Below, in pieces: positions 11,117 to 32,544 of a stretch of 37,569 bases of DNA. The stretch comes from Oscillospiraceae bacterium (GTDB taxonomy: Bacteria > Bacillota > Clostridia > Oscillospirales > SIG530), in assembly GCA_015067075.1 (NCBI GenBank), contig SVND01000023.1, positions 1-37,569 on the forward strand, given 5' to 3'. The translations under genes were made by a program, and so were the position numbers. Within the stretch, counting starts at the first letter, position 1, and every line of letters begins with the position of its first letter. Under the pieces are notes generated by a model. It saw only the letters and a program-made list of their open reading frames with translations. It searched no databases and had not been told where the DNA came from.

Positions 11117-12367
11117 TTATTTCATCTTTATATCAGCTCCGAGCGTGCGGAGCTTGCCGTCAATATTTTCATAGCCTCTTGCGATATGGTATATATCGTC
11201 AATTTCAGTTTTTCCCGTCGATGCCAGCGCCGCTATCACAAGCGCCGCTCCCGCTCTGAGATCCGTCGCTGTAACACGCGCGCCCGTCAGCCGCGAATTG
11301 CCCAAAACAATAGCCGTTCTATCCTCCACATAGATGTCGGCACCCATACGATAAAGCTCGTTGACATATTTGAACCTGCTTTGAAACACTTGCTCCGAAA
11401 CGAGTGTCACCCCGTCGGCCACAGAAAGCATAGCCGTAAGCATCGGCTGGCAATCCGTAGGAAATCCCGGATAGGGCGCTGTCACTATGCGCGGTACAGC
11501 CTTAAGCCTTTTCGGCGCATCAGCCGTTACAAAGCTTTCGCCCGTGCTTATCCTTACCCCTGCCGTTTCAAGCACGTCGGCAACAGCCTTAATATGCTCG
11601 GGCACTATTCCCGTCACCGTCACCTTGCCGCCCGTTATCATCGCCGCGGCAATCAGCGTTACAGCTTCTATTCGGTCAGGTATTATTTCGTGCTCCGCGC
11701 CGTAAAGCCTTTTTACGCCGACTATTTTTATTACGTCGCCGCCTGCGCCCTCGATCCTTGCACCCATTTTCGTCAGCATTTGGGCAAGGTCGGCTATTTC
11801 AGGCTCCTTCGCCGCATTAGATATTACAGTTTCTCCCACAGCCGTTACAGCCGCCAGCATTATATTTTCCGTCGCACCAACACTGGGAAAAGGCAAATGT
11901 ATATACGCTCCGCGAAGCTGCTGAGCTTCGCCATAAAGAAATCCACCGTATTCCACAAATTCCGCGCCCATCTTTTTAAGCGAGGAAATATGTACGTCGA
12001 TAGGTCTGGGGCCAAGATCACATCCGCCCGGCATACTTATTTCTGCCCGTCCAAGCCGAGCCAGCATTGCACCTAAAAATATTATTGATGAGCGCATTTG
12101 CTCCATAAGCGAATACGGTATATCCGATTTTTCAATACAATCAGCCTTGACCGTTACCGTGCCGCTTGAAAACTCCGCCTCACAGCCGAGGTATCTCAAT
12201 ATCTGCACCGTGTTGTCAACGTCGCTTATATCGGGACACCGCGTTACCCTGCACTCTTCTTCCGTCAGTATCGTTGATGCTAAAATGGGCAAGGCACTGT
12301 TTTTTGAGCCGCTCGCCCGTACCTCGCCGTTCAGCCTATGCCCCGGCGTTACAATTATTCTTTCCAT
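11117..12367 (-). CDS. murA: UDP-N-acetylglucosamine 1-carboxyvinyltransferase MurA
   Basis: This 416-residue protein catalyses the first committed step of peptidoglycan synthesis, transferring enolpyruvate from PEP to UDP-GlcNAc. It has SGSKNSALP near residues 18-26 (catalytic Lys-Asn pair) and PGGCDLGPRPIDVH near 112-125 with the fosfomycin-target cysteine. The ATG at 12367 is favoured because GGGAGG lies eight bases upstream; another ATG six bases earlier would be only two bases from it. The ribosome binding site can pair with an upstream ATGACCT (see the hairpin at 12369-12437). Confidence 0.97.
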   Translation of the reverse strand: MERIIVTPGHRLNGEVRASGSKNSALPILASTILTEEECRVTRCPDISDVDNTVQILRYLGCEAEFSSGTVTVKADCIEKSDIPYSLMEQMRSSIIFLGAMLARLGRAEISMPGGCDLGPRPIDVHISSLKKMGAEFVEYGGFLYGEAQQLRGAYIHLPFPSVGATENIMLAAVTAVGETVISNAAKEPEIADLAQMLTKMGARIEGAGGDVIKIVGVKRLYGAEHEIIPDRIEAVTLIAAAMITGGKVTVTGIVPEHIKAVADVLETAGVRISTGESFVTADAPKRLKAVPRIVTAPYPGFPTDCQPMLTAMLSVADGVTLVSEQVFQSRFKYVNELYRMGADIYVEDRTAIVLGNSRLTGARVTATDLRAGAALVIAALASTGKTEIDDIYHIARGYENIDGKLRTLGADIKMK

Positions 12368-21477: not shown

Positions 21478-21572
21478 TATGTTTTTCAAATTTTTTTAAT
21501 TTTTTTACGATTTTTTTCTTATAAATACGACACGAGTAAAAATCCAAAATTTTTTTACGCATTTGTCACGTT

Positions 21573-21601
21573 TTGACCAATTCAAAATGGTAACATATTC
21601 C
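21573..21601 (+). promoter_or_regulatory. Possible promoter of the tail module
   Basis: TTGACC (21573-21578), a 17-base spacer and TATTCC (21596-21601) precede the first tail gene. The -35 is good and the -10 poor. The upstream 21480-21560 is very AT-rich with T runs and holds no gene. A strong ribosome binding site (AGGAGGTG, 21611-21618) follows. Confidence 0.35.
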
Positions 21602-21623: not shown

Positions 21624-22025
21624 ATGGACAAGCTTAATGCTTTTTTAGCAAAGGACAAACTGGAGCTTACGGAAGATATCGTTATCTCAGATCGTTTTTG
21701 CGAAAACGGCGAGCCTGTAAAATGGCGCATACGCCGTATCAGCGAGGCAGAAAATCGTGAGCTTCGCCGCACCGTTCCCTGCAATTCAAACGGTGTCGGT
21801 GTAGATTACGATTTATATCTGCTTCGCCTTGCAAGCTCATGCACCCTTTACCCCGATCTGAAAAGCGCCTCCCTGCAAAGCGCATACGGCGTACGCGGTG
21901 AAGCTTCTCTTTTGGAAGCGATGCTCCTTCCCGGAGAGTATGCGCAGCTTTTATCGGCGGTAAAGCGGATCAACGGCTTTGACGAGAGCTACAGCAAGCT
22001 TGCTTCGGAAGCAAAAAAATCATAA
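21624..22025 (+). CDS. XkdN-like phage tail assembly chaperone (unshifted product)
   Basis: This 133-residue protein matches the XkdN/Phage_TAC family: VKWRIRRISEAENRELRR near residues 32-49, LASSCTLYPDLKSASLQSAYGV near 71-92, and LLEAMLLPGEYAQLLSAVKRINGF near 97-120. In contractile-tailed phages such proteins sit between tube and tape-measure genes and escort the tape measure while the tube polymerises. Here it is the first gene of the module, with no sheath or tube gene before it. Its 3-prime end carries a frameshift signal giving a longer form. The strong ribosome binding site and intact frame argue against a decaying gene. Confidence 0.88.
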   Translation: MDKLNAFLAKDKLELTEDIVISDRFCENGEPVKWRIRRISEAENRELRRTVPCNSNGVGVDYDLYLLRLASSCTLYPDLKSASLQSAYGVRGEASLLEAMLLPGEYAQLLSAVKRINGFDESYSKLASEAKKS

Positions 22026-22162
22026 CCGACGGAGATTACAGCGCCGTTTATGCTTTTCATGCGCTTCGTCGGTTTCACATCCTGCCGTCACAATTCATAG
22101 CCCTGCCCCGCAATGAAAAAGCATTTGTGATAGCCGCTATACAGCTTGAGTCAGAACAATAA
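21624..22162 (+). CDS. Frameshifted tail assembly chaperone (predicted -1 fusion, about 179 aa)
   Basis: Slipping back one base on the A7 run at 22013-22019 bypasses the TAA at 22023 and continues in an open frame for 47 codons to TAA at 22160-22162. The added part includes AVYAFHALRRFHILPSQF and LPRNEKAFVIAAIQLE. It resembles the short second domain (T-like) of tail chaperones, with the common pattern of aromatic residues, a proline and an NEKAF-type helix. That frame has no start or binding site of its own, so a fusion is the natural reading. This parallels the gpG/gpGT arrangement of phage lambda. Confidence 0.82.
22013..22074 (+). promoter_or_regulatory. Programmed -1 frameshift signal: slippery A7 plus stem-loop
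   Basis: In the zero frame the heptamer 22013-22019 is A AAA AAA, the efficient bacterial slippery type. Four bases later an 8-bp perfect stem begins, AACCGACG (22024-22031) with CGTCGGTT (22067-22074). It encloses a second stem, AGCGC (22040-22044) with GCGCT (22061-22065). The zero-frame stop lies at the foot of the stem. Confidence 0.85.
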
Positions 22163-22197
22163 AATACAAGCTTCGGCAATCAAGATAGGAGATTTTT

Positions 22198-22572
22198 ATG
22201 ACATTTGAACAGCATTTTATCGGCATAAATGCTTTGATAAACACCTTGATAAGTATTTTTGAAATAAGCGACAGCTCCGAGCTTGCACCGACTTATTACA
22301 AAGATGCATTTCCCTCGGATTCTCAAGGCTTTTATCAGCATTTTGACGCCTTGGGGCATCACAGCGTCCAAGCATTTGATGCAAGCATATATTCGCTTCC
22401 TAAAAAGCCTGACGAAGGCAAGTCCGACGAAAGCACTGCCCGATTTTTCCGTTTGGACAAAAAGCCTTCAAACTTTTTTTCAGCTCTCAACAAAAACAAT
22501 ATTGTACAAGTTGTTGAAAGCTGTTTGAAGCAGCAGCTTTCTTCCCACAGCGGAGGTATTTATGACATTTGA
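22198..22572 (+). CDS. Small protein in the tape-measure position, unrecognised
   Basis: This 124-residue protein lies exactly where PBSX-type modules carry the tape-measure gene, after the frameshifting chaperone and before the LysM protein. Tape measures usually have several hundred to over a thousand residues. I see a hydrophobic N-terminal helix (about 8-25), a polar middle with a charged KKPDEGKSDES stretch, and a C-terminal helix NNIVQVVESCLKQQL followed by SGGIYDI. The last part recalls ends of some clostridial tape measures, so this could be a deletion derivative or a very short ruler. I cannot confirm homology. It overlaps the next gene by 11 bases and has a good binding site (GATAGGAG). 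Confidence 0.6.
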   Translation: MTFEQHFIGINALINTLISIFEISDSSELAPTYYKDAFPSDSQGFYQHFDALGHHSVQAFDASIYSLPKKPDEGKSDESTARFFRLDKKPSNFFSALNKNNIVQVVESCLKQQLSSHSGGIYDI

Positions 22573-23176
22573 TAAAACCTGCGTTTACCTTTTTTGCGAA
22601 GGCGATACACCCTTAAGATTTCCCGTAAATCCATCTTCCCTGCACATTTACGGCGGATCTCACACACTAAACAATCGCATCATTTCTTTTGGAGATATTG
22701 CAGAAATATCGAACGAAAAGCTTAAAACAATACGCTTTTCAGTACATATCCCACAGTTATATAGTAGAATATGTAGCTGTAATGAAAGTGATTTCGTATC
22801 ATCTGCCACATGGCTCAATGCACTTTCCACTTGGCTTTACGCAAAGTCTCCCCTGCGCTTTGTGTACTGCTCACCTGAAAAAGAGATCAACCTCCCCGTC
22901 GCTATCTCTGAATACGAAATAAGCGAGCACGGCGGATATCCGAACGATATTTTCCTTACACTTTCTCTTTCGGAGCTGAGGGATAGCACCGCGGAAGGTC
23001 ACCGCGCCTTCCGAGACACGCCGTCGCAATATACGGCTTCATCAAACGATGACCTTTTCAGCGTTGCTCGCTCCGTTTACGGTACGGATAGCTGGCAGGA
23101 TGTTTATTTGGCAAACGGGCACATTATCAATAACAGCGTTTTTATACCTGAAGGGACGGTGCTTGCTATCCCATGA
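22562..23176 (+). CDS. XkdP-like baseplate protein with C-terminal LysM domain
   Basis: This 204-residue protein begins with the beta-rich region seen in XkdP-type proteins (FPVNPSSLHIYGG, then FGDIAEISNEKLKTIRFSVHIP). It ends in a LysM domain (about 155-203: SSNDDLFSVARSVYGTDSWQDVY, then NGHIINNSVFIPEGTVLAI). In PBSX and R-type particles the equivalent links the hub to the wedge, and the LysM helps hold baseplate parts. GGAGG precedes the ATG. Its end overlaps the hub gene start by four bases. Confidence 0.85.
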   Translation: MTFDKTCVYLFCEGDTPLRFPVNPSSLHIYGGSHTLNNRIISFGDIAEISNEKLKTIRFSVHIPQLYSRICSCNESDFVSSATWLNALSTWLYAKSPLRFVYCSPEKEINLPVAISEYEISEHGGYPNDIFLTLSLSELRDSTAEGHRAFRDTPSQYTASSNDDLFSVARSVYGTDSWQDVYLANGHIINNSVFIPEGTVLAIP

Positions 23177-24117
23177 TAACAGCAGAGCTTATAACACGGG
23201 ATCGCGTCGTAAAATTACATCCCATTTCCATTACCGTGACGGAAAAATGCGGTGCCGCATCATACGCAAACGCAGTTTTTTATGCTTCCGATATTTCCTG
23301 CAAATGCGGCGACAAGCTTCGCATTCGGGAAAGCGACACGCTTATTTTCAGCGGTTTTATTTTCGAGCACGGAATTGACAGCGAAAACCGACTTACAGTT
23401 TTAGCTTACGACTGTCTGCGTTATCTTCAGTGCACGGGCTCGTATTTTATCTCGCAGGCCACTGCCTCCTCCCTTGTCAGGCGCATTGCCAACGATTTCA
23501 TGCTGCCAACTGCCGATATCGCCGAAACTGCCCACGTCATACCGCTCATCGATTTCGACGAGCAAAGCCTTATGAATATTATTTCATTTGCTTTAGCTGA
23601 AACGAAAGCAAATACTGCCCGATCATATATGCTTTTGAGCGACGATTGTAAGGTGTCGCTGATCGACCGTCGAAGCTATTTTTACAGCAAGCCTATCAGC
23701 GACGAAAACGTGATCTGCGCATATGAAACGAAGCTGTCCGCAGAAGGCTGCGCAAACGTCATTAAACTGACGAGCGCAGGTAAAGGCGGCTATAGGTACA
23801 GCTACACAGCAAAGGACGAGGACAGCATACACGCTTTGGGATATTTGAAATATTCCCGCTCTGTATCAGGCAAAAGCACATTTGAGCTAAAAGAGCTTGC
23901 CCATTCGCTTTTAGCTCAAAAATCAACTCCGGCCTTTACTGCAGATTTGGAATGCCGCTTTTTAGCAGGGCTTCGGGCAGGCATGCAGATAACGCTTTCT
24001 GTAAAAAAGCCTTCCCTTTACGGAACGTATGCGGTAGACAGCCTTGTGCATCGAATAGATGAAAACGAAAAGGTAAGCATACTACGATTGAAAGGAGCAA
24101 CCAATGGAGCTTATTGA
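23173..24117 (+). CDS. XkdQ-like baseplate hub protein (gp27/late-control-D type)
   Basis: This 314-residue protein corresponds to XkdQ/YqbQ, the hub joining tube end, spike and wedges. Visible features are the opening beta domain with SGFIFEHGIDSENRLTVLAYD (about 57-77), the helical YLQCTGSYFISQATASSLVRRIA region and the long beta C-terminal half ending SLVHRIDENEKVSILRLKG. It overlaps the LysM gene by four bases and the next gene by 14. Confidence 0.85.
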   Translation: MITAELITRDRVVKLHPISITVTEKCGAASYANAVFYASDISCKCGDKLRIRESDTLIFSGFIFEHGIDSENRLTVLAYDCLRYLQCTGSYFISQATASSLVRRIANDFMLPTADIAETAHVIPLIDFDEQSLMNIISFALAETKANTARSYMLLSDDCKVSLIDRRSYFYSKPISDENVICAYETKLSAEGCANVIKLTSAGKGGYRYSYTAKDEDSIHALGYLKYSRSVSGKSTFELKELAHSLLAQKSTPAFTADLECRFLAGLRAGMQITLSVKKPSLYGTYAVDSLVHRIDENEKVSILRLKGATNGAY

Positions 24118-24439
24118 GCTTATAAAACAAGCCGCGCGCGACGCCGTAGCTTCTGAAAAGCTGACAGACGTTTTTATCGGCAAGGTTATAGATACAGCCC
24201 CTTTGACTGTTATGATAGACAGCAAAGCTCTTATATCCGAGGACAACCTTTTGCTCTCTTCCCGCGTTTGCCTCGACACAGAAATGCTATCCCATAGTCA
24301 TACAGCTTCAAAGGAAGACGAAATATCACAAATTGTCACCTTATCAAAGCCGCTTTCATCGGATGATCTCGTTATTGTACTGAGATGTCACGGCGGCGGC
24401 ACATACGTCATTTTAGATAGAATAAAAGGAAAGGAATGA
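24104..24439 (+). CDS. XkdR-like (DUF2577) baseplate protein
   Basis: This 111-residue protein has the DUF2577 pattern: an N-terminal helix (MELIELIKQAARDAV), an OB-like beta region (FIGKVIDTAPLTVMID), DNLLLSSRVC and the end SSDDLVIVLRCHGGGTYVILDRI. In PBSX-type loci this small protein follows the hub and precedes the gp25-like gene, and it is thought to be part of the hub/spike complex. No clear membrane-piercing spike helix is seen, so if a pointed tip exists it must be elsewhere. Confidence 0.82.
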   Translation: MELIELIKQAARDAVASEKLTDVFIGKVIDTAPLTVMIDSKALISEDNLLLSSRVCLDTEMLSHSHTASKEDEISQIVTLSKPLSSDDLVIVLRCHGGGTYVILDRIKGKE

Positions 24440-24443
24440 TTTT

Positions 24444-24827
24444 TTGTTACCTGTCAGAACGGCTTCACTCACGACAGTTCCACCGTCTTCAAGCTACACC
24501 TACAAGCTCGCCTCTCCCGATAAAATGGACGAATACATTGACGGCATCGACGCATTGGAGCAAGCAATACGTCTTGTCTTTGCAACGCGCCGCTACGCTT
24601 ATCCAATCTATTCGCACAATTACGGAAATGAGTTTTCAAAGCTTTATGGCTTGAAAGGCGCAGTTTTTGAAAGCGAAGCGAAAAGGCTTATAAAGGAAGC
24701 TTTGCTCACCGACGACAGAATAACCTCCGTGGAAGGTTTTTCATTCTCTTACGAGTCAGATCGAATCCTCGTTGCCTTTACGGTCAAATCAATTTTCGGT
24801 GTTCTCTCATACGGCGACACCATATAA
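24444..24827 (+). CDS. XkdS-like (DUF2634) baseplate wedge protein, gp25 type
   Basis: This 127-residue protein matches the DUF2634/gp25 group: YKLASPDKMDEYIDGIDALEQAIRLVFATRRYAYPIYSHNYG-type sequence at about 18-58, then SEAKRLIKEALLTDDRITSVEGFSF and the C-terminal strands. gp25 homologues begin sheath assembly on the baseplate and connect to the wedge. The start is a TTG at 24444 with AAGGA upstream; an ATG at 24436 is in another frame. The presence of a sheath-nucleating protein is notable because no sheath gene is in the window. Confidence 0.84.
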   Translation: MLPVRTASLTTVPPSSSYTYKLASPDKMDEYIDGIDALEQAIRLVFATRRYAYPIYSHNYGNEFSKLYGLKGAVFESEAKRLIKEALLTDDRITSVEGFSFSYESDRILVAFTVKSIFGVLSYGDTI

Positions 24828-24848
24828 CGGTTATAGAAAGGATTTTTT

Positions 24849-25928
24849 ATGTCACAAACAGATTTTGAGCACATTTTAAGCGATATGCTTTCTCTCATTC
24901 CCGACGCCCTTGATAAGCGCGAGGGCAGCATCATATATAACGCTCTCGCCCCTGCTGCCGCTTCCCTCGCGACGGCATATATCAATCTTGAGCTTACTCT
25001 GCGCCGATGCTTCGCTGACACAGCAACGGGCGACGATCTTCAGCGCCGATGCGCTGAACGCGGTATACACCGTATTCCCGCAACAAGCGCCGTTTGCAAG
25101 GGTGAATTTACAGACATCTACGGAAAAGCTATGGCTATCCCCCTCGGCACACGCTTCCGCGTAAATTCACTTACATATGTCGCGGACACAGCTTTTGACG
25201 ATGGTTCATACCGCATGGTATGCGAGCAAAAGGGTACCGACGGCAATATTGCATCGGCACAGCTTACTCCCATCGACGATATTCCGTCGCTTGCACGGGC
25301 AAGGATAACAAGCCTTTTAGTTTCGGCGCGTAACGCGGAAAGCGACGACGCCTTGCGTGAAAGATATTTTGCTTCCTTTGACAGCTTTTCCTTCGGCGGT
25401 AATATTTCCGACTACGTTCAGCGAATTTCAGCCATCGACGGCGTTGGTGCAGTAAAAGTATTTCCTGCTTGGAACGGCGGAGGCACGGTCAAGGCTGTAT
25501 GTCTTGCATCCGATCTTTCCATTCCCGACGATACGCTCATCTCTACCATTCAGGAGCTTTGCGATCCCGCAGATTCGCAAGGCACAGGTCGCGGCTTTGC
25601 GCCCATTGGACACACGGTGACCATAGCGGCAGCTTCGGAATTTCCTCTTAATATCGCCATTGCCGCTACGATGCAAAGCGGATATGACGTTAACACGCTC
25701 ACACCGCTTTTAAAAATCGCCGCCGAGCAATATATCTTAAAGCTTCGTCAAGACTGGTCTTCCGACGAGCAGACAGTCGTAAGAGTATCACAGCTTGAAC
25801 ACGCTCTTTTGAGCGTAGACGGCGTTCTTGATATTTCCGCCGCCATAAATTCCTCTTCATCAAATATCCTTTTAGATGCGCATCAGGTGCCGTTTTTAAG
25901 CGTTTTTACAGTTTCAGCGGGAGGGTAA
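24849..25928 (+). CDS. XkdT-like baseplate J protein
   Basis: This 359-residue protein is a baseplate J/gp6-type wedge subunit, of normal length. It opens with an N-terminal helical region (LIPDALDKREGSIIYNALAPAAA, about 18-40), then GDDLQRRCAERGIHR, the beta domain KGEFTDIYGKAMAIPLGTRFRV and the core GGNISDYVQRISAIDGVGAVKVFPAWNGGGTVK. Wedges built of this protein change shape to trigger contraction. It follows the gp25-like gene by 21 bases. Confidence 0.92.
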   Translation: MSQTDFEHILSDMLSLIPDALDKREGSIIYNALAPAAASLATAYINLELTLRRCFADTATGDDLQRRCAERGIHRIPATSAVCKGEFTDIYGKAMAIPLGTRFRVNSLTYVADTAFDDGSYRMVCEQKGTDGNIASAQLTPIDDIPSLARARITSLLVSARNAESDDALRERYFASFDSFSFGGNISDYVQRISAIDGVGAVKVFPAWNGGGTVKAVCLASDLSIPDDTLISTIQELCDPADSQGTGRGFAPIGHTVTIAAASEFPLNIAIAATMQSGYDVNTLTPLLKIAAEQYILKLRQDWSSDEQTVVRVSQLEHALLSVDGVLDISAAINSSSSNILLDAHQVPFLSVFTVSAGG

Positions 25929-25931
25929 AAA

Positions 25932-26471
25932 ATGAAAAAATATTTGGATTATCTTCCCGATCTTTTTTCTCAGATTCCTGAGTTTTGCAATATCGCCTTC
26001 GCTTGCGATGCGCAAACGGAAAAGCTTTATCATGCTCAAAACGAGCTTTTGGAAAGTCAGTTTATCTCAACCGCCTCACCTCAGGCTCTTACACGATACG
26101 AAAATATGCTTGGCTTGCCTTTATTGTCTTCCATCGAAAGCCGTCGATTGCGCCTTACGGCAATTTTCTCTGACAAGCCGCCATACAGCTACGGCGCGTT
26201 CATCGCATGGCTGGACAGCGTTTGCGGAAAAGACGGATACACCGTCGAGTTTTCTCGCCACAAGCTTCAGCTTTACATCCGTATCGCTCTTTCAAAGCTT
26301 TCAGCCTTCGACGATATAGCTCGCCGTTGCCGTTTGATGATACCTGCCAATATACAACTCGATATAATGCCCATGTTTGCAACGCACAGCTTTCTTTCCG
26401 AAGCAACTCACGCTCTGCTTGCCTTGGGAAGCCACGAGCAAACAAAAACTTTAGTAAAGGAGACAGTATGA
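25932..26471 (+). CDS. XkdU-like (DUF2313) tail protein
   Basis: This 179-residue protein fits the DUF2313/YmfQ family that follows the J protein. It opens LDYLPDLFSQIPEF, then LLESQFISTASPQALTRYENMLGLPL (about 39-64), ESRRLRLTAIF and AFIAWLDSVCGKDGYTVEF. It probably bridges the wedge and the fibre network. The start is three bases after the J stop; its end overlaps the fibre gene by an ATGA junction. Confidence 0.85.
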   Translation: MKKYLDYLPDLFSQIPEFCNIAFACDAQTEKLYHAQNELLESQFISTASPQALTRYENMLGLPLLSSIESRRLRLTAIFSDKPPYSYGAFIAWLDSVCGKDGYTVEFSRHKLQLYIRIALSKLSAFDDIARRCRLMIPANIQLDIMPMFATHSFLSEATHALLALGSHEQTKTLVKETV

Positions 26472-26995
26472 AAACAACCGAAAGACGCGGCATTAAATGC
26501 CCCGAAAGCAACGATTTTTACAATATCGACGACTTTAATCACAATTTTGCAGTTCAGGATACAGCTTGCGACAAGCTCGCCTCAGCCGTTTGGAGCGGCA
26601 ACACGCTGATTGCAAAAAGCGAGGTGCCTGTTCTCAAGCTTTTTGACGGACTACGTATTTATATAAAAATGCCTGCTGCAAGCCCTGCCGCTCCCCTGCT
26701 CAATCTTGACGGACTTGGCGCAATATCCATTTTGCGTCATGACAGCACTCCCCCCGCCGCATCCCTTATGAATGCCGACACATGGTATAAATTTATGTAT
26801 GACGGAAGCTGTTTCCGTGTAAGTGAGCATTCCGCGCCCTTGACTTCGCCCTGCTTCAAGGGCGCTCCCACCACAGCCGCCGGAACTGATTACGGTGTAA
26901 AAAAGCTTCGCAATATTTTATTCGGCACATCAGCTCCCACAGCTTCAACCCAATGGTCAAACGGCGATATTTTCATCGTTTACGAACAGCAGTGA
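26468..26995 (+). CDS. Short tail-fibre/connector protein
   Basis: This 175-residue protein starts at 26468 with AAGGAGA upstream; the same frame is open further upstream but has no supported start there. It has a connector-like N-terminus (NDFYNIDDFNHNFAVQDTACDKLAS). It then has a module also seen in the large fibre at about 375-440: a DGL turn, a run of small residues, then L-N-DGLGA and an aromatic end. No enzyme motif is seen. By place, downstream of the DUF2313 gene, it resembles PBSX fibre genes. Confidence 0.65.
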   Translation: MKTTERRGIKCPESNDFYNIDDFNHNFAVQDTACDKLASAVWSGNTLIAKSEVPVLKLFDGLRIYIKMPAASPAAPLLNLDGLGAISILRHDSTPPAASLMNADTWYKFMYDGSCFRVSEHSAPLTSPCFKGAPTTAAGTDYGVKKLRNILFGTSAPTASTQWSNGDIFIVYEQQ

Positions 26996-27004
26996 GGTGG
27001 TACC

Positions 27005-27529
27005 ATGGCTTACAAATGGGCAAAATATTCCGTAGCGACAGCCGAAGGTGATTTCCCCCTATCTCCCACATCAGGCTCTTATATTTCTTCTGACTCATCC
27101 CTTGACGGCTACGGAAGCTATAATTTCACAAACGGCAAGTATAAGGGCGTACTTACCGCATCCATATCAGTATTTTCACCTACGGCTACAGTATTTACCA
27201 TATCCAATGACGGCACGCTTATTACAAAGCACGTCGGAAAAGACATCACCCATTCCATACCGCCGCGAATCAATATTTACAGTTTTACAAAGGGCGTAAA
27301 AAATATTTGCGGCGAGTTTATTGAGTTTGTTACAGCGGAAAATGCCGATGCGTATCCGCAAAACAATGCACAAGGCGGATATTGGTACGTTTATATGGGG
27401 GAAGAAAAAATCTCCGCATACGTTAACATTGACGGCAACGCGAAAAAGGTAAAAGCCATCTATCTCAACGTAAACGGAGAATCAAAAAAGGCAGTGAATG
27501 TTTACTGCAACACAGGAGGTAACACATGA
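27005..27529 (+). CDS. Putative tail-tip protein, unrecognised
   Basis: This 174-residue, beta-rich protein has no identified domain. The middle is Ser/Thr/Tyr rich. The C-terminal part holds two imperfect repeats, YVNIDGNAKKVKAIYLNV and NGESKKAVNVYCN. Such GxAKKVK repeats are common at the ends of clostridial phage tail proteins, so a receptor-binding or appendage role is plausible. It has a good binding site and overlaps the next gene by four bases. Confidence 0.55.
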   Translation: MAYKWAKYSVATAEGDFPLSPTSGSYISSDSSLDGYGSYNFTNGKYKGVLTASISVFSPTATVFTISNDGTLITKHVGKDITHSIPPRINIYSFTKGVKNICGEFIEFVTAENADAYPQNNAQGGYWYVYMGEEKISAYVNIDGNAKKVKAIYLNVNGESKKAVNVYCNTGGNT

Positions 27530-27741
27530 ATGAACAGCCGACACGCGAGTACATAACACGCAAAGAATTTGACGAACAGCTACTAAAGCAGGAAAAAACA
27601 AACGGACAGATGTTTGCCAATATCGAACGGCTTACAGCTCAAAACGCCAGCTTGTTGCGAATACAAACGTGGTTTATGGGTATTGTTTCAACGGTGCTCG
27701 TAGGGCTTATCGTTGCGCTGGCAGGTGTTATCCTTCAATAA
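27526..27741 (+). CDS. XhlA-like small membrane protein
   Basis: This 71-residue protein has a charged, helical N-terminal part (YITRKEFDEQLLKQEKTNG, then IERLTAQNASLLR) and one C-terminal transmembrane segment (about 48-69). This is the build of haemolysin XhlA, which in PBSX acts with a holin and endolysin in cell lysis. The domain call is from topology and sequence feel; the coiled N-terminal region would be cytoplasmic. Confidence 0.7.
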   Translation: MNEQPTREYITRKEFDEQLLKQEKTNGQMFANIERLTAQNASLLRIQTWFMGIVSTVLVGLIVALAGVILQ

Positions 27742-27756
27742 GAAAGGAGAAGATTT

Positions 27757-28068
27757 ATGCAAATAATGCAAGGTGATGCTTACAGCATCGGAATTGACGT
27801 GACGCTGAACGACGCACCGATCGACATAGCTATGGTTGAAAAAGCGGAGATCGTTTTAGGCGGACTTGCAAAGCAATATCCAAACGAAATTACATACGAC
27901 GGCGAAAACGGCAAATTTCTTTTTCCCATAACACAGCAGGAAAGCTTTTCTTTTGGTTTACCCCCTTCCCCTGCACAAATACGAATAAAGCTTAAAACAG
28001 GCGAAGTTATCGGAGGTAAGCTTGGCGTGTTTGATGTAAGCATGAGCGCATCAAAGGAGGTTTTGTAA
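27757..28068 (+). CDS. Small fibre-associated protein (BppU-like N-terminal domain)
   Basis: This 103-residue protein (MQGDAYSIGIDVTLNDAPID start, then KAEIVLGGLAKQYPNEITYDG and FLFPITQQESFSF) looks like the beta-sandwich domain at the start of clostridial fibre or BppU-type proteins, here as a separate ORF before the large fibre. It may be a fibre adaptor on the baseplate. Its stop overlaps the next start (TAATG). Family assignment is tentative. Confidence 0.5.
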   Translation: MQIMQGDAYSIGIDVTLNDAPIDIAMVEKAEIVLGGLAKQYPNEITYDGENGKFLFPITQQESFSFGLPPSPAQIRIKLKTGEVIGGKLGVFDVSMSASKEVL

Positions 28069-31034
28069 TGTACGAGCTTAAAGCAAAGCTGACGAGCGAT
28101 AGCTCTCTTTCCGCAAACCTCGGCGGTTTATATGCAAAAGCCCCCGAAGACGGAGCTACGTTTTATCCGTCCGTTTCTGAAGACGGCGTAATATCATGGA
28201 CGAACGACAAGGGGCTCGACAACCCTTTGCCCGTCAATATCAAGGGCAAAGACGGTAGCAAAGGCGACAAGGGTGATAGTGGTGAAGATGGAAATGATGG
28301 AAAAACTGCATACGCCTATGCACAGGACGGCGGCTATACGGGAACGGAAGCGGAGTTTGCAAAGAAGCTTGCAGTCGATTCGTTGCAAGTGGAGCTTACA
28401 AGCACGGGTATAACCGATGATGAAACAGGATTATTAGTGTTTAGCGCAAATAAATCTGTTTCTGAATGCATTGAGGCTTTCGAGAACGGTGTACCCGTGT
28501 ATGCTTGTTTAGACCCAACGGGAGATGCTTTCGGCGGTGTAATGGTCTCTTGCTTAGACGGTTTAGTTGTGTTTGAAGTTGCAAATTCATTAAATGTCGC
28601 CAAGCGGTATATGATTATCGGAATGAATAACGGTGAAAACGATATGTGGCTTGGTACGTATTCAGACGGCGCTACAATGGCAGATATTCCCGTTCCCACG
28701 ATTAAAGCTACATCGGAAATTACGCCCACAGAAGTTTTCAGGCTGATGCTGGAAGGAAAGGATTTCGCTATCATCCATACAGATGCAACATACGGCGAGA
28801 TGCTTTTTAACAGCTTCGTATATTCGCAAGCTCTTAATGGGATGGTCGCCAGCATTGTTTTTGAAACGGCGGGCGTTAAGTTCTGCGCTCAGCTTAGCGG
28901 CGGTTTAACACCTAACACATGGGCATTTAGTGCGTTTCAACTTGCCGGTGCAGAAGATATCCCCACATCTTTGCCTAATCCAAACGCTCTCACCATAAAC
29001 GGTACAGCCTATGACGGCTCAAAGGCTGTTGATATGACAACGTCGGTAAACGCTATGATAGATGCAAAAGCGAAAAAGGGCGAGAGCATTTATTATATTG
29101 TCGGCAACGGTGATACGGCAGGAGTTTGGACAGGTACTTGCGAAGATATTACCGAGTATTACGACGGGCTTACCATTCTTTTTAAGCTCAACGTGGCAGG
29201 TGTTTCGGGCGGCAGTACACTTAATATCAACGGTTTAGGTGCGTGTGCAGTAAAAAGAAACGCATCGACGGCTGTTACTACCACTTACCCTGCAGGTTCG
29301 ATAGTTATGCTCACCTATAGCGGCGGTGTTTGGCTTACGGCGGATTATGATGCTAATACAAAAACCTCCGCAGGTACTTCCAACAAAGTCGGAACAAAGA
29401 TGTTTTTGGTGGGCGGCACTTCGCAAAATTCAAGCGGTGTAACGACCTATACCAATACAAACTGTTACATCGGTACCGATAACTGCCTGTACAGCAACGG
29501 TAAAAAGGTCGCAGAGGAAGAAGATATCCCGACCGCTTTGAAAAATCCTAATGCCCTTACCATCAACGGCAAGACTTACGATGGCTCGGAAGCGGTTGAT
29601 ATTACAATCGCCGGCGGTTCAGCAAGTGAGAATGTTTTGCTCGGACAAACACCGATTACTTTATCCGAAGATGCAAATGTAAAATTAGTCGGTTCGGGAG
29701 CGCACACCTATAGCGTAAAAGGCAAAACCGTAGCGGACCTTTCAACTGCTGCAGGAAAGACAGCCGTAGCCGTACAGCTTAATGAAACCGAAGAATACAT
29801 TGAGCTTGTTGCGACGCAAAACTCCGCTTGGTATAGTTCACATTTGGACATTTCGATTAAGGGTCTTACTGTCGATGAGTCTTATGTTTTCGTAATAAAT
29901 GGCTTTGGTGTTGATACCGTCAACAAAACTTGCAACGGACATTTTATTTTGAAAAGCTCTACAGGAGCTACGTTGGCAACAATGACAAATAAATATGAAT
30001 CAGGTTTGGATAGTGTGTCATTTACGGCGACTACTGCGGATATAGTCATTTCAGTATATCCGGCAGATGCTTATTATTCGAAAGAGGGAAATGGTAACAT
30101 CTGGACAGCACGATTTATTGATTTTTACATCAACAAGGCAGCTGACGGCACTACACGTACAAGCATTATTGATAAATCGGGAACTTTCACCGATTCTTAT
30201 GCGCTCGGAAGTCTTTCGGCAGGTATCACTATCACCTCTGACCCATCTTGTGAAGTGTACAGCGTAGTCAGCGGAAGCGGCGGTTCGGGTGAAGCCGTGA
30301 TGCCCCTTGCAGGTAAAACCGTTGTTTGCTTTGGTGATAGTCTTTTTGGTATGTATACGGGAGATAGTTCTGCGCCTGCCTACGTGGCAAAACGCACAGG
30401 TGCAACGGTACACAATGTAGGCTTTGGCGGTTGTCGTATGTCTGTCCACCCGACTTCGGGCTATGCAGAATTTTGTATGTGGGCGCTTGCGAAAGCGATT
30501 GCCGAAAACAACTGGACTTCACAAGATGCCGCAGCATCAAAAGGCTCTGCAAATTTTCCCGACCAACTTGCTGTCTTAAAATCTATTGACTTTAATGATG
30601 TTGATTATATCGTCATCCATTACGGCACAAATGATTTTAATGGTGCGATTATCGACAACGCAAGCAACCCCAAAGACTACAATACTCTTTGCGGTGCTTT
30701 GCGATACAGCATTGAAACTTTGCTGACGGCTTACCCGAAGATTGAAATTTTTGTTTCTCTCCCTGCTTTTCGTTTTTGGACGGAAAACGGAACAGTGACC
30801 TATTCTGATACAAAGACCAACACCAACGGCGACAAACTTACCGATTTTGTTAAAGCTCTCGCAGATACAGCGAGGGAATATAACCTTCCTGTAATAGATT
30901 GCTATTACGGACTCGGTATCAACAAAATCAATGCCGCTACGTTCCTTGGTGACGGAGTGCATCACAATGTAGATGGAAGAAAACGCTTTGGTGAATATAT
31001 CGGAGCAAAGCTGATAGCAAGCGGCGATGTTTAG
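28068..31034 (+). CDS. Large tail fibre with C-terminal SGNH/GDSL esterase domain
   Basis: This 988-residue protein is probably the main receptor-binding fibre. Its N-terminal part has a collagen-like run (KGKDGSKGDKGDSGEDG, about 60-80) and a YAQDGGYTGTEAEFAKKLA linker. Two repeats follow, at about 300-325 and 487-512, each with NPNALTING then YDGS. A beta module at about 345-440 resembles one in the 26468 gene. The end, about 745-985, is an SGNH hydrolase: FGDSLFG (near 755), NVGFGG, HYGTNDF (near 851) and DGVHHNVDG (near 962) supply Ser, Gly, Asn and Asp/His. It may remove acyl groups from a target-cell glycan. Substrate and host are not visible. Confidence 0.83.
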   Translation: MYELKAKLTSDSSLSANLGGLYAKAPEDGATFYPSVSEDGVISWTNDKGLDNPLPVNIKGKDGSKGDKGDSGEDGNDGKTAYAYAQDGGYTGTEAEFAKKLAVDSLQVELTSTGITDDETGLLVFSANKSVSECIEAFENGVPVYACLDPTGDAFGGVMVSCLDGLVVFEVANSLNVAKRYMIIGMNNGENDMWLGTYSDGATMADIPVPTIKATSEITPTEVFRLMLEGKDFAIIHTDATYGEMLFNSFVYSQALNGMVASIVFETAGVKFCAQLSGGLTPNTWAFSAFQLAGAEDIPTSLPNPNALTINGTAYDGSKAVDMTTSVNAMIDAKAKKGESIYYIVGNGDTAGVWTGTCEDITEYYDGLTILFKLNVAGVSGGSTLNINGLGACAVKRNASTAVTTTYPAGSIVMLTYSGGVWLTADYDANTKTSAGTSNKVGTKMFLVGGTSQNSSGVTTYTNTNCYIGTDNCLYSNGKKVAEEEDIPTALKNPNALTINGKTYDGSEAVDITIAGGSASENVLLGQTPITLSEDANVKLVGSGAHTYSVKGKTVADLSTAAGKTAVAVQLNETEEYIELVATQNSAWYSSHLDISIKGLTVDESYVFVINGFGVDTVNKTCNGHFILKSSTGATLATMTNKYESGLDSVSFTATTADIVISVYPADAYYSKEGNGNIWTARFIDFYINKAADGTTRTSIIDKSGTFTDSYALGSLSAGITITSDPSCEVYSVVSGSGGSGEAVMPLAGKTVVCFGDSLFGMYTGDSSAPAYVAKRTGATVHNVGFGGCRMSVHPTSGYAEFCMWALAKAIAENNWTSQDAAASKGSANFPDQLAVLKSIDFNDVDYIVIHYGTNDFNGAIIDNASNPKDYNTLCGALRYSIETLLTAYPKIEIFVSLPAFRFWTENGTVTYSDTKTNTNGDKLTDFVKALADTAREYNLPVIDCYYGLGINKINAATFLGDGVHHNVDGRKRFGEYIGAKLIASGDV

Positions 31035-31080
31035 GCATGATAGGCTCAAACGAGCCGATTGAATAAAGGAGGTATAAAAA

Positions 31081-31320
31081 ATGACAGTCAAAGCAGAAAC
31101 AATCATCCGCACGGTAATTCTTGCAATAACGCTTGCAAATCAGATACTTACGGTGTGCGGAGCAAACCCCTTACCCTTTTCGGAGGACGAGCTGTACAGC
31201 CTTTTTTCAGCCATAGCTACAGCCGCCGTATCAATTTGGGCTTGGTGGAAAAACAACAGCTTCACTAAAGCCGCTATCGAAGCGGATGAGGTTTTGGAAA
31301 AGCTGAAAAAAGCTTCATAA
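31081..31320 (+). CDS. SPP1-type phage holin
   Basis: This 79-residue protein has two transmembrane segments (about 8-27 and 38-56), the pattern NQILTVCGANPLPFSEDE between them, and the SPP1-holin-like IWAWWKNNSFTKAAIEAD followed by a charged end. Holins make the hole that lets an endolysin out; in tailocin loci the same proteins release particles. No endolysin gene lies in this module. AAAGGAGG precedes the start, and a terminator follows the stop. Confidence 0.85.
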   Translation: MTVKAETIIRTVILAITLANQILTVCGANPLPFSEDELYSLFSAIATAAVSIWAWWKNNSFTKAAIEADEVLEKLKKAS

Positions 31321-31327
31321 AAGCACG

Positions 31328-31356
31328 AAAGCAGATGACGAAACGCCATCTGCTTT
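31328..31356. terminator. Bidirectional terminator between the tail module and the SDR gene
   Basis: A 10-bp perfect stem, AAAGCAGATG (31328-31337) with CATCTGCTTT (31347-31356), ends in a short T run on the plus strand. It lies eight bases after the holin stop and just past the end of the convergent SDR gene. Confidence 0.75.
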
Positions 31357-31360
31357 TCCT

Positions 31361-32062
31361 TTAATCCAATTTCCATCCGTTATCGTTGTGATACACCATA
31401 AGGCGTGTCATACCGCCGTCGATACAAATATTTTCACCGGTTATAAAGCCCGCGCTGTCGGAGCAAAGATACAGCACCATATCGGCAATATCACGGGGAT
31501 TACCTACCCTGCCCGCAGGATGCTGATATGCATCAGCGCCCTCATACTGCGTATAAGCCGTGTCGATCCAGCCGGGCGAAACAGAGTTCACCCTCACCTT
31601 TCCTGCAAGGCTCACCGCGAGAGCATGGGTCAGCGCGCTTATACCGCCCTTCGCCGCAGTATAGCTTTCGGAAAAGGGCTGGCTCATCCTGTCACGCGAT
31701 GATGAAATATTCACTATTGCCGCTTTTTCCGCAAAATACGGCATAAAAAGCTTCGTCAGCATAAACGGCGCGCAAACGCCGACACGCATTGCGTAATCAA
31801 ACTGCTCGTAAGTGCAATCCTTTATCCCTTTAAAAAGCGGCGGAGCGTTATTTATAAGATAATCCACGCGTCCGTATTGGGCGATCACTTTGTCGGCAAA
31901 TCGGCAAAGGGTGTCCTCATCGCCAATATCGCCCACGAAATACGGATTTTCCGCAACATCTATAATGCACACCTTTGCGCCTTTTTCTTTAAACTGCTCA
32001 CAAATGCACTTGCCGATCCCGTTTGCACCGCCTGTTATAACGGCAATTTTATCTTTAAACAA
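31361..32062 (-). CDS. Short-chain dehydrogenase/reductase (SDR)
   Basis: This protein of about 233 residues has the Rossmann motif ITGGANGIG at its start, a YLINNAPP segment in the NNAG position, and the catalytic SESYTAAKGG (Tyr-x-x-x-Lys). The C-terminal FITGENICIDGGMTRL is typical of classical SDRs such as glucose dehydrogenase-like and FabG-like enzymes. A TTG start at 32062 is preferred: GGGGG lies seven bases before it and the product then begins MFKDKIAVITGG. An ATG 30 bases earlier would overlap the glycosylase gene and adds an atypical leader. The substrate is unknown. Confidence 0.85.
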   Translation of the reverse strand: MFKDKIAVITGGANGIGKCICEQFKEKGAKVCIIDVAENPYFVGDIGDEDTLCRFADKVIAQYGRVDYLINNAPPLFKGIKDCTYEQFDYAMRVGVCAPFMLTKLFMPYFAEKAAIVNISSSRDRMSQPFSESYTAAKGGISALTHALAVSLAGKVRVNSVSPGWIDTAYTQYEGADAYQHPAGRVGNPRDIADMVLYLCSDSAGFITGENICIDGGMTRLMVYHNDNGWKLD

Positions 32063-32064
32063 AT

Positions 32065-32544
32065 CTATTCCCCCGTTCTTATCCTTTTCCATTCATTTAT
32101 TAAAGCTTCCGCGCTCCACGTTGCGTTTGCAGGACTTGTGGACGGAAGCACTATTGCATCACGATTCACAGCACACCTTATGTACTTATCGTAATACTTT
32201 TTCGCTGTTTTGCCGTTAACGTAAATTTGCGTTACGTTGCTTCTTTCAAGAATGGCTGAAATGTCGTTTGGCACAACGTTTTTTATGGAGCTGTCAGCGC
32301 TTCCCGTTATATCGCATCTTGCGATAACATCCCAAAGCGCAATTTTGTTTTTCAGCAAAAAAGCTTTTTTCTCATCTACCGTTTTCGGCTCATCGCTTTC
32401 AAATACGGCGGCAGCCACCTTCCAAAACCTGTTTTTGCCGTGACCGTAGAAAAATCCCGTTTCCCTTGATCGCACCGACGGAAAAGAGCCTAAAATAAGT
32501 ATCCGCGAGTTTGCATCATATACAGGCGCTATCGTATGCTCCAT
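32065..32544 (-). CDS. Deoxyinosine/uracil-type DNA glycosylase
   Basis: This 159-residue protein is in the uracil-DNA glycosylase superfamily, closest by motif to the hypoxanthine (deoxyinosine) group: ILGSFPSVRSRETGFFYGHGKNRFWKV-type sequence at about 16-42, ALWDVIARCDITGSADSSI at about 69-87 and LPSTSPANATWS near 133-144. It removes deaminated bases (hypoxanthine or uracil) in base excision repair. The second motif is followed by NVVPNDI. The gene is upstream of and likely cotranscribed with the SDR. Confidence 0.85.
   Translation of the reverse strand: MEHTIAPVYDANSRILILGSFPSVRSRETGFFYGHGKNRFWKVAAAVFESDEPKTVDEKKAFLLKNKIALWDVIARCDITGSADSSIKNVVPNDISAILERSNVTQIYVNGKTAKKYYDKYIRCAVNRDAIVLPSTSPANATWSAEALINEWKRIRTGE

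Follow-up and report, generated by a model that had tools for sequence, protein, structure and literature searches.

A putative minimal tape measure protein in a dispersed, phage-derived gene set of an Oscillospiraceae genome

In PBSX-type (Xkd) modules, the genes for a contractile tail lie in one late operon in the order TAC(-1 frameshift)-TMP-XkdP(LysM)-XkdQ-XkdR-XkdS-XkdT-XkdU, in which the tape measure protein (TMP, XkdO) has about 620-1170 aa. Tail length corresponds to ∼0.15 nm per tape-measure residue, and repeats of 13 residues are typical of tape measures. In phage λ the functional G/GT pair of the tail assembly chaperone (TAC) has a purpose only with a TMP to coat. A strongly shortened tape measure is found in the gene transfer agent RcGTA, which is tied to the regulators of its host. 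The RcGTA tape measure has about 216 residues and its tail five tube discs (PMC7296036).

We analyzed a stretch of 37,569 nucleotides from an Oscillospiraceae bacterium (the window, contig C41 of the genome). The window follows the PBSX-type gene order, and members of the matching head and tail families (SPP1-type portal, scaffold, capsid, sheath, tube) are encoded elsewhere in the genome. The place of the TMP is taken by an ORF of only 124 codons (P124). At a probability of roughly 0.58, we consider P124 to be a minimal TMP, consisting of almost only the C-terminal docking end, of a dispersed and co-regulated phage-derived particle that is GTA-like or a related domesticated element. The features are collected in Table 1.

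Table 1. Features of the window, and sites of the shared promoter motif on other contigs (contig given before the position)
Feature	Position	Strand	Evidence
Shared promoter motif TGTCACGTTTTGACC	21564..21578	+	motif TGTCANNTTTTGWCC, 5 genome occurrences
-10-like element TAACAT, 12 bp after TTGACC	21591..21596	+	TAnnAT at same distance at all five sites
XkdN-like tail assembly chaperone (TAC)	21624..22025	+	PF08890 (Phage_TAC_5) 3.6e-29, phrog_389 7.9e-33
Slippery heptamer A_AAA_AAA, -1 frameshifting	22013..22019	+	A_AAA_AAC or A_AAA_AAA at same position in relatives
TAC -1 frame extension (lambda G-GT type), IITDGDYSAVYAFHALRRFHILPSQFIALPRNEKAFVIAAIQLESEQ	22019..22163	+	pattern conserved in 14/15 relatives compared
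P124, putative mini tape measure	22198..22572	+	slot, coding score, C-end
TMP-like C-end of P124 (residues 100-122), NNIVQVVESCLKQQLSSHSGGIY	22495..22563	+	anchored PSSM 11.4 bits
XkdP-like LysM tail protein	22562..23176	+	phrog_380 2.5e-28, phrog_8272 0.0038
XkdQ/YqbQ-like baseplate hub	23173..24117	+	PF24032 2.5e-50
XkdR-like DUF2577 protein	24104..24439	+	PF10844 4.3e-18
Sheath initiator (XkdS-like)	24444..24827	+	PF10934 7.5e-27
Baseplate J (XkdT-like)	24849..25928	+	PF04865 7.3e-49
Mu gp48-like baseplate protein (XkdU-like)	25932..26471	+	PF10076 5.6e-16
Fiber-region protein	26468..26995	+	position; phrog_28171 7.3e-7 on longer ORF from 26207
Fiber-region protein of unknown family	27005..27529	+	position
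Small fiber-region protein	27757..28068	+	position
Tail fiber, 988 aa, C-terminal GDSL/SGNH hydrolase domain	28068..31034	+	PF13472 2.4e-11, residues 754-972
TGTCANNTTTTGWCC site before portal operon	C46:17754-17768	-	motif match
TGTCANNTTTTGWCC site before TerS operon	C54:3097-3111	-	motif match
TGTCANNTTTTGWCC site before DUF6291 gene, end of C65	C65:18041-18055	+	PF19808 1.8e-16
TGTCANNTTTTGWCC site before orphan 270-aa gene (L297:2707-3519 +)	C15:39640-39654	+	motif match

The tape-measure slot and its short ORF

P124 is the sole gene between the TAC and LysM genes. In the ORF check it began with ATG and carried an upstream AGGAG. Its codon score of 0.139 bits/codon matched that of the LysM and hub genes (0.142) and exceeded that of the other five frames (≤0.017), so P124 is probably coding. 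The initial annotation had placed one small, unusually short ORF between the chaperone and the LysM gene, in the tape-measure slot, and our analysis bears this out. The gap from TAC end to LysM start is 549 bp here. Among 91 loci with a recognizable TAC and LysM gene, a set in which some places were fetched twice, it spans 1.84-4.96 kb in 75; the other 16 rows include several duplicates of one place and the window itself. P124 has about one-sixth of the usual tape-measure size (typically ≥600 aa) and gave no match to the full-length TMP profile.

Database searches returned little for P124. Pfam, PHROG and phage records (50,697 records, tblastn) gave no match, and phmmer against the PDB gave a single meaningless one (E 1.6). 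Close relatives of P124 and of the LysM protein in GTDB and IMG/VR were confined to an identical copy of the same contig (L071/L291), and the relatives of baseplate J reached 35-45%. No close homologue that could show purifying selection on P124 was found, which we counted against the tape-measure reading. The maximal 19-residue hydropathy was 1.35 vs. 2.1-3.7 in full TMPs, and strong membrane segments are absent. The 12-13 residue aromatic repeat of other TMPs was not significant (p 0.26). An AlphaFold2 model of P124 alone was all-helical with a pLDDT of 44; it was unusable and was kept out of the fold search.

The neighboring chaperone gene is of the λ G/GT type, with a -1 slippery site followed in the -1 frame by a domain of 48 codons that is conserved in 14 of 15 relatives. 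By analogy with λ, the conserved frameshift would imply that there is a TMP to coat here too. The TAC of one further genome with a related module (G001) has no frameshift extension.

Two profiles were used to look for a full-length tape measure in the rest of the genome. The initial annotation had made its reading depend on the absence of such a gene, and neither profile found one. Profile A1, built from ten full TMPs, gave nothing at E ≤ 10 in the own genome (G000); it matched TMPs in 9 of 11 control genomes, including two short ones via the C-end alone. A profile of the TMP C-end gave no match in the whole own genome and missed P124 itself. This profile recovered four of five short TMPs left out of its building, two clearly (E about 4e-9) and two weakly (E 0.003 and 0.045), and missed the most diverged one, in genome G367. 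The evidence that the genome holds no recognizable full TMP is strong but not final, because the assembly is only 95.9% complete (85 contigs); the C-end profile also misses the most diverged short TMPs. It is very unlikely in our estimate that the real TMP lies elsewhere, unassembled or too diverged, and that P124 is incidental. Such a gene could sit in the missing sequence or beyond the end of contig C65, where an operon runs off, and short TMPs have been relocated in other genomes (see below). Against it, neither profile found a candidate, and a TMP-like end is found on the very gene that fills the canonical slot.

The nearest phage by capsid (IMGVR_UViG_3300012979_000105, L216) has its genes in one stretch, with a TMP of 728 aa in this slot; the short state is therefore most likely derived.

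The C-end of P124 and short tape measures in other Clostridia

PBSX-type TMPs have a common C-terminal end, D.DG..., then ...AEGV[YH]. The SGGIYDI end of P124 had been said to recall tape-measure ends, and the resemblance held in an ungapped alignment of 23 residues (100-122) in the correct register. In a free HMM search with a first small TMP-end profile, P124 fell into the right register but scored -1.2 bits, without significance, and an end-anchored test was used for this reason. Here P124 scored 11.4 bits, whereas the best of 5,201 unrelated ORF ends reached 7.5 bits and none of 20,000 shuffles attained the P124 score. Members of the TMP family score 16 bits and up. With the iterated profile (107 members over the fetched loci, with some genes entered more than once or in truncated form), the free HMM search of P124 alone was marginal at E 0.02-0.034.

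The near-invariant Asp and Glu are missing from the P124 end, and the codons of its SGG double as the Shine-Dalgarno sequence of the LysM gene (GGAGG). Since Gly-Ile-Tyr, which provides most of the anchored score, coincides with this Shine-Dalgarno and start region, the overlap was tested separately. None of 380 Shine-Dalgarno-coupled ORF ends reached the P124 score. When the last five columns, which overlap the signal, were dropped, 36 of 5,201 ends equaled P124; when the tail was kept and the rest shuffled, 5 of 5,000 reached the full score. We concluded that a relationship of P124 to tape measures is likely but not proven.

Short TMPs that keep only the C-end were found in other Clostridia of the same order or class as the host. 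Four of them have 236 (G119), 337 (G044), 245 (G050) and 279 aa (G007). In three f76 genomes (G367, 224 aa; G472, 259 aa; G489, 308 aa) the gene lies between the large terminase (TerL) and portal genes (L197:1265-1939, L198:3281-4060 and L199:16770-17696, minus strand). The usual slot of these three is nearly empty, with the LysM gene almost directly after TAC, and an empty slot therefore need not mean an absent TMP. PHROG_1068 ("tail length tape measure") matched three of the short TMPs scanned at its last ∼40-57 positions, G489 being the sole clear match (E 9e-7; G119 0.0037, G050 0.029). In a relative of the f8 module, this C-end stands on a full-length TMP of 1,166 aa. The series of 224-337 aa suggests that shortening by loss of the body has happened more than once.

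All seven short TMPs resemble P124 in that only a C-end of ∼25-50 residues is recognizable and strong membrane segments are absent. They differ from it in length, in bodies made of unrelated repeats or low complexity, and in C-ends that score clearly as TMP by HMM, whereas that of P124 scores marginally. The 12-13 residue aromatic repeat is significant in the G119 protein, whose body (L200:7158-7868) consists of tandem 13-residue NTEN(N/S)SAVYRNDY-like repeats.

These comparisons also bear on the suggestion that P124 is an unrelated small protein (a cap, hub accessory or fiber chaperone) inserted in the slot of a tail that has no TMP, which we regard as quite unlikely. P124 has no database homologue, its residues 1-99 resemble nothing found, and TMP-less modules may exist, as in G001 the LysM gene directly follows TAC and no TMP C-end was found in the genome. 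Against this suggestion, the C-end of P124 matches in register and where a TMP end is expected, and the f76 genomes pair their empty slot with a short TMP gene that has moved beside TerL.

Dispersed operons and their shared promoter motif

The phage genes lie in three separate operons, for the terminase (C54), for capsid, sheath and tube (C46) and for chaperone, baseplate and fiber (the window). Sheath and tube are encoded outside the window, at the end of the C46 operon (portal, scaffold, capsid, small proteins and connectors, sheath, tube), which closes after the tube gene with a strong hairpin terminator (-31.2 kcal/mol, z -6.35). A 38-bp hairpin with GGACGGAG arms occurs in two near-identical copies downstream of the tube gene (L045:10932-10969 and 11615-11652). 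The small and large terminase genes, the former assigned by position, lie by themselves on C54, next to a URO-D-like gene. The operon in the window adjoins mraZ, and no tRNA was found at the window boundaries. The GDSL/SGNH domain of the tail fiber perhaps deacetylates host surface glycans.

Sheath, tube and TAC each had a single match in the genome, and there was one clear large terminase, so the loci are complementary. Across the three contigs the head and tail gene set is complete and intact, and the flanks are cellular-type genes. The split was judged unlikely to come from a chimeric assembly because of the strong terminator after the tube gene and the promoter motif of its own before TAC.

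The motif TGTCANNTTTTGWCC occurs five times in the 2.26-Mb genome (0.15 expected), and TAnnAT follows TTGWCC at exactly 12 bp at all five sites. The first three operon sites served to derive the motif; independent support comes from the site before the gene for DUF6291, a phage-associated family, and from the fixed spacing at the last two sites. The DUF6291 operon runs off the end of C65, and further phage genes may follow; the orphan 270-aa gene on C15 may be another member of the regulon. In G119, G001 and G044, the ∼300 bp upstream regions that were inspected lacked the motif. At 10-13 of 17 positions the motif resembles the consensus of two tandem Spo0A boxes, and the genome encodes Spo0A (9.1e-47). 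Control of these sites by Spo0A is only a lead. Genes dispersed over co-regulated loci, as in gene transfer agents, are found here as at least three structural operons and one further phage-gene site. Together they form a dispersed, co-regulated, phage-derived element that resembles a gene transfer agent. Such agents keep structural phage genes, terminase and capsid included, in the chromosome with no integrase or replication genes beside them, and they package random host DNA for transfer.

Related arrangements were seen elsewhere. G001 also disperses contractile-phage genes (L057, on G001:C56; L204, on G001:C1; L207, on G001:C33): TAC-LysM is separated from sheath-tube-initiator by mutS and a glycosyltransferase gene, the portal and a second TAC-like gene are on another contig, and the terminase is alone on a third. 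In G119 (G119:C19; L202:14745-16133, L200:1019-2515) two opposite-strand genes lie between the terminase and the portal operon, possibly an intermediate of dispersal. The IMG/VR entry IMGVR_UViG_3300031555_010720 (L071) corresponds to window positions 21624-32092; one third of the element, with some cellular sequence, has been filed there as a virus contig.

P124 might instead be a non-functional remnant of a deleted TMP in a decaying prophage, whose tail would be absent or without length control. We hold this to be rather unlikely. Only the C-end of P124 is recognizable, and diverged, and the full TMP of the nearest phage in the same place shows that material was lost. Decay would fit poorly with the intact P124 ORF, its ribosome site and gene-like codon use, and in the three operons every other phage gene that was read is intact too. 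The frameshift extension of TAC, the partner of the TMP, has been retained, the common promoter has been kept across the operons, and other lineages have shortened their TMPs in a similar way.

Comparison with known systems

If P124 is a minimal TMP, its last ∼25 residues would dock in the hub of LysM and XkdQ-like proteins, while TAC and TAC-GT, made by -1 frameshifting, would coat the remainder and deliver tube subunits. Tube polymerization would end after the few rings spanned by ∼100 residues; at 0.15 nm each, these would correspond to roughly 15-19 nm and 4-5 rings. Docking, ring number, ruler function and the GTA-like role are what we infer from the genes. A bolder version, possible but doubtful, is that the element is a gene transfer agent of Clostridia whose contractile tail has few rings, whose genes lie in at least four operons switched on jointly from tandem-Spo0A-box-like promoters (tied to the sporulation decision), and whose TMP is the shortest known for a contractile tail.

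Were the preferred reading right, the series of ∼700, ∼250 and 124 residues would show that the indispensable part of a TMP is its C-terminal docking end, and these proteins would be natural constructs with which to ask whether tail length, coating by the chaperone and passage through the membrane can be separated. For gut-type Clostridia, a search of the available literature for gene transfer agents found nothing; the dispersed and jointly controlled operons point to an element of that type in this group.

The PBSX-type module is similar in gene order and in its head and tail families. P124 differs from XkdO in its much smaller size and in having neither the N-terminal TMP domain nor membrane segments, and the genes here are split into separate operons. 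The phage nearest by capsid has the same gene families and a capsid protein 64% identical to that of the C46 operon; unlike here, its genes are contiguous from terminase to hub, its TMP is full-length, and early-region-type ORFs lie upstream of the terminase. For the tube near 20 nm, "far shorter than known", that the initial annotation expected if P124 is a ruler, RcGTA serves as the comparison, with its ∼216-residue TMP and five discs on a non-contractile tail. Like RcGTA, the element described here is phage-derived and would have a much shortened tape measure; RcGTA is siphovirus-like, P124 is shorter still, and no sequence relation was seen.
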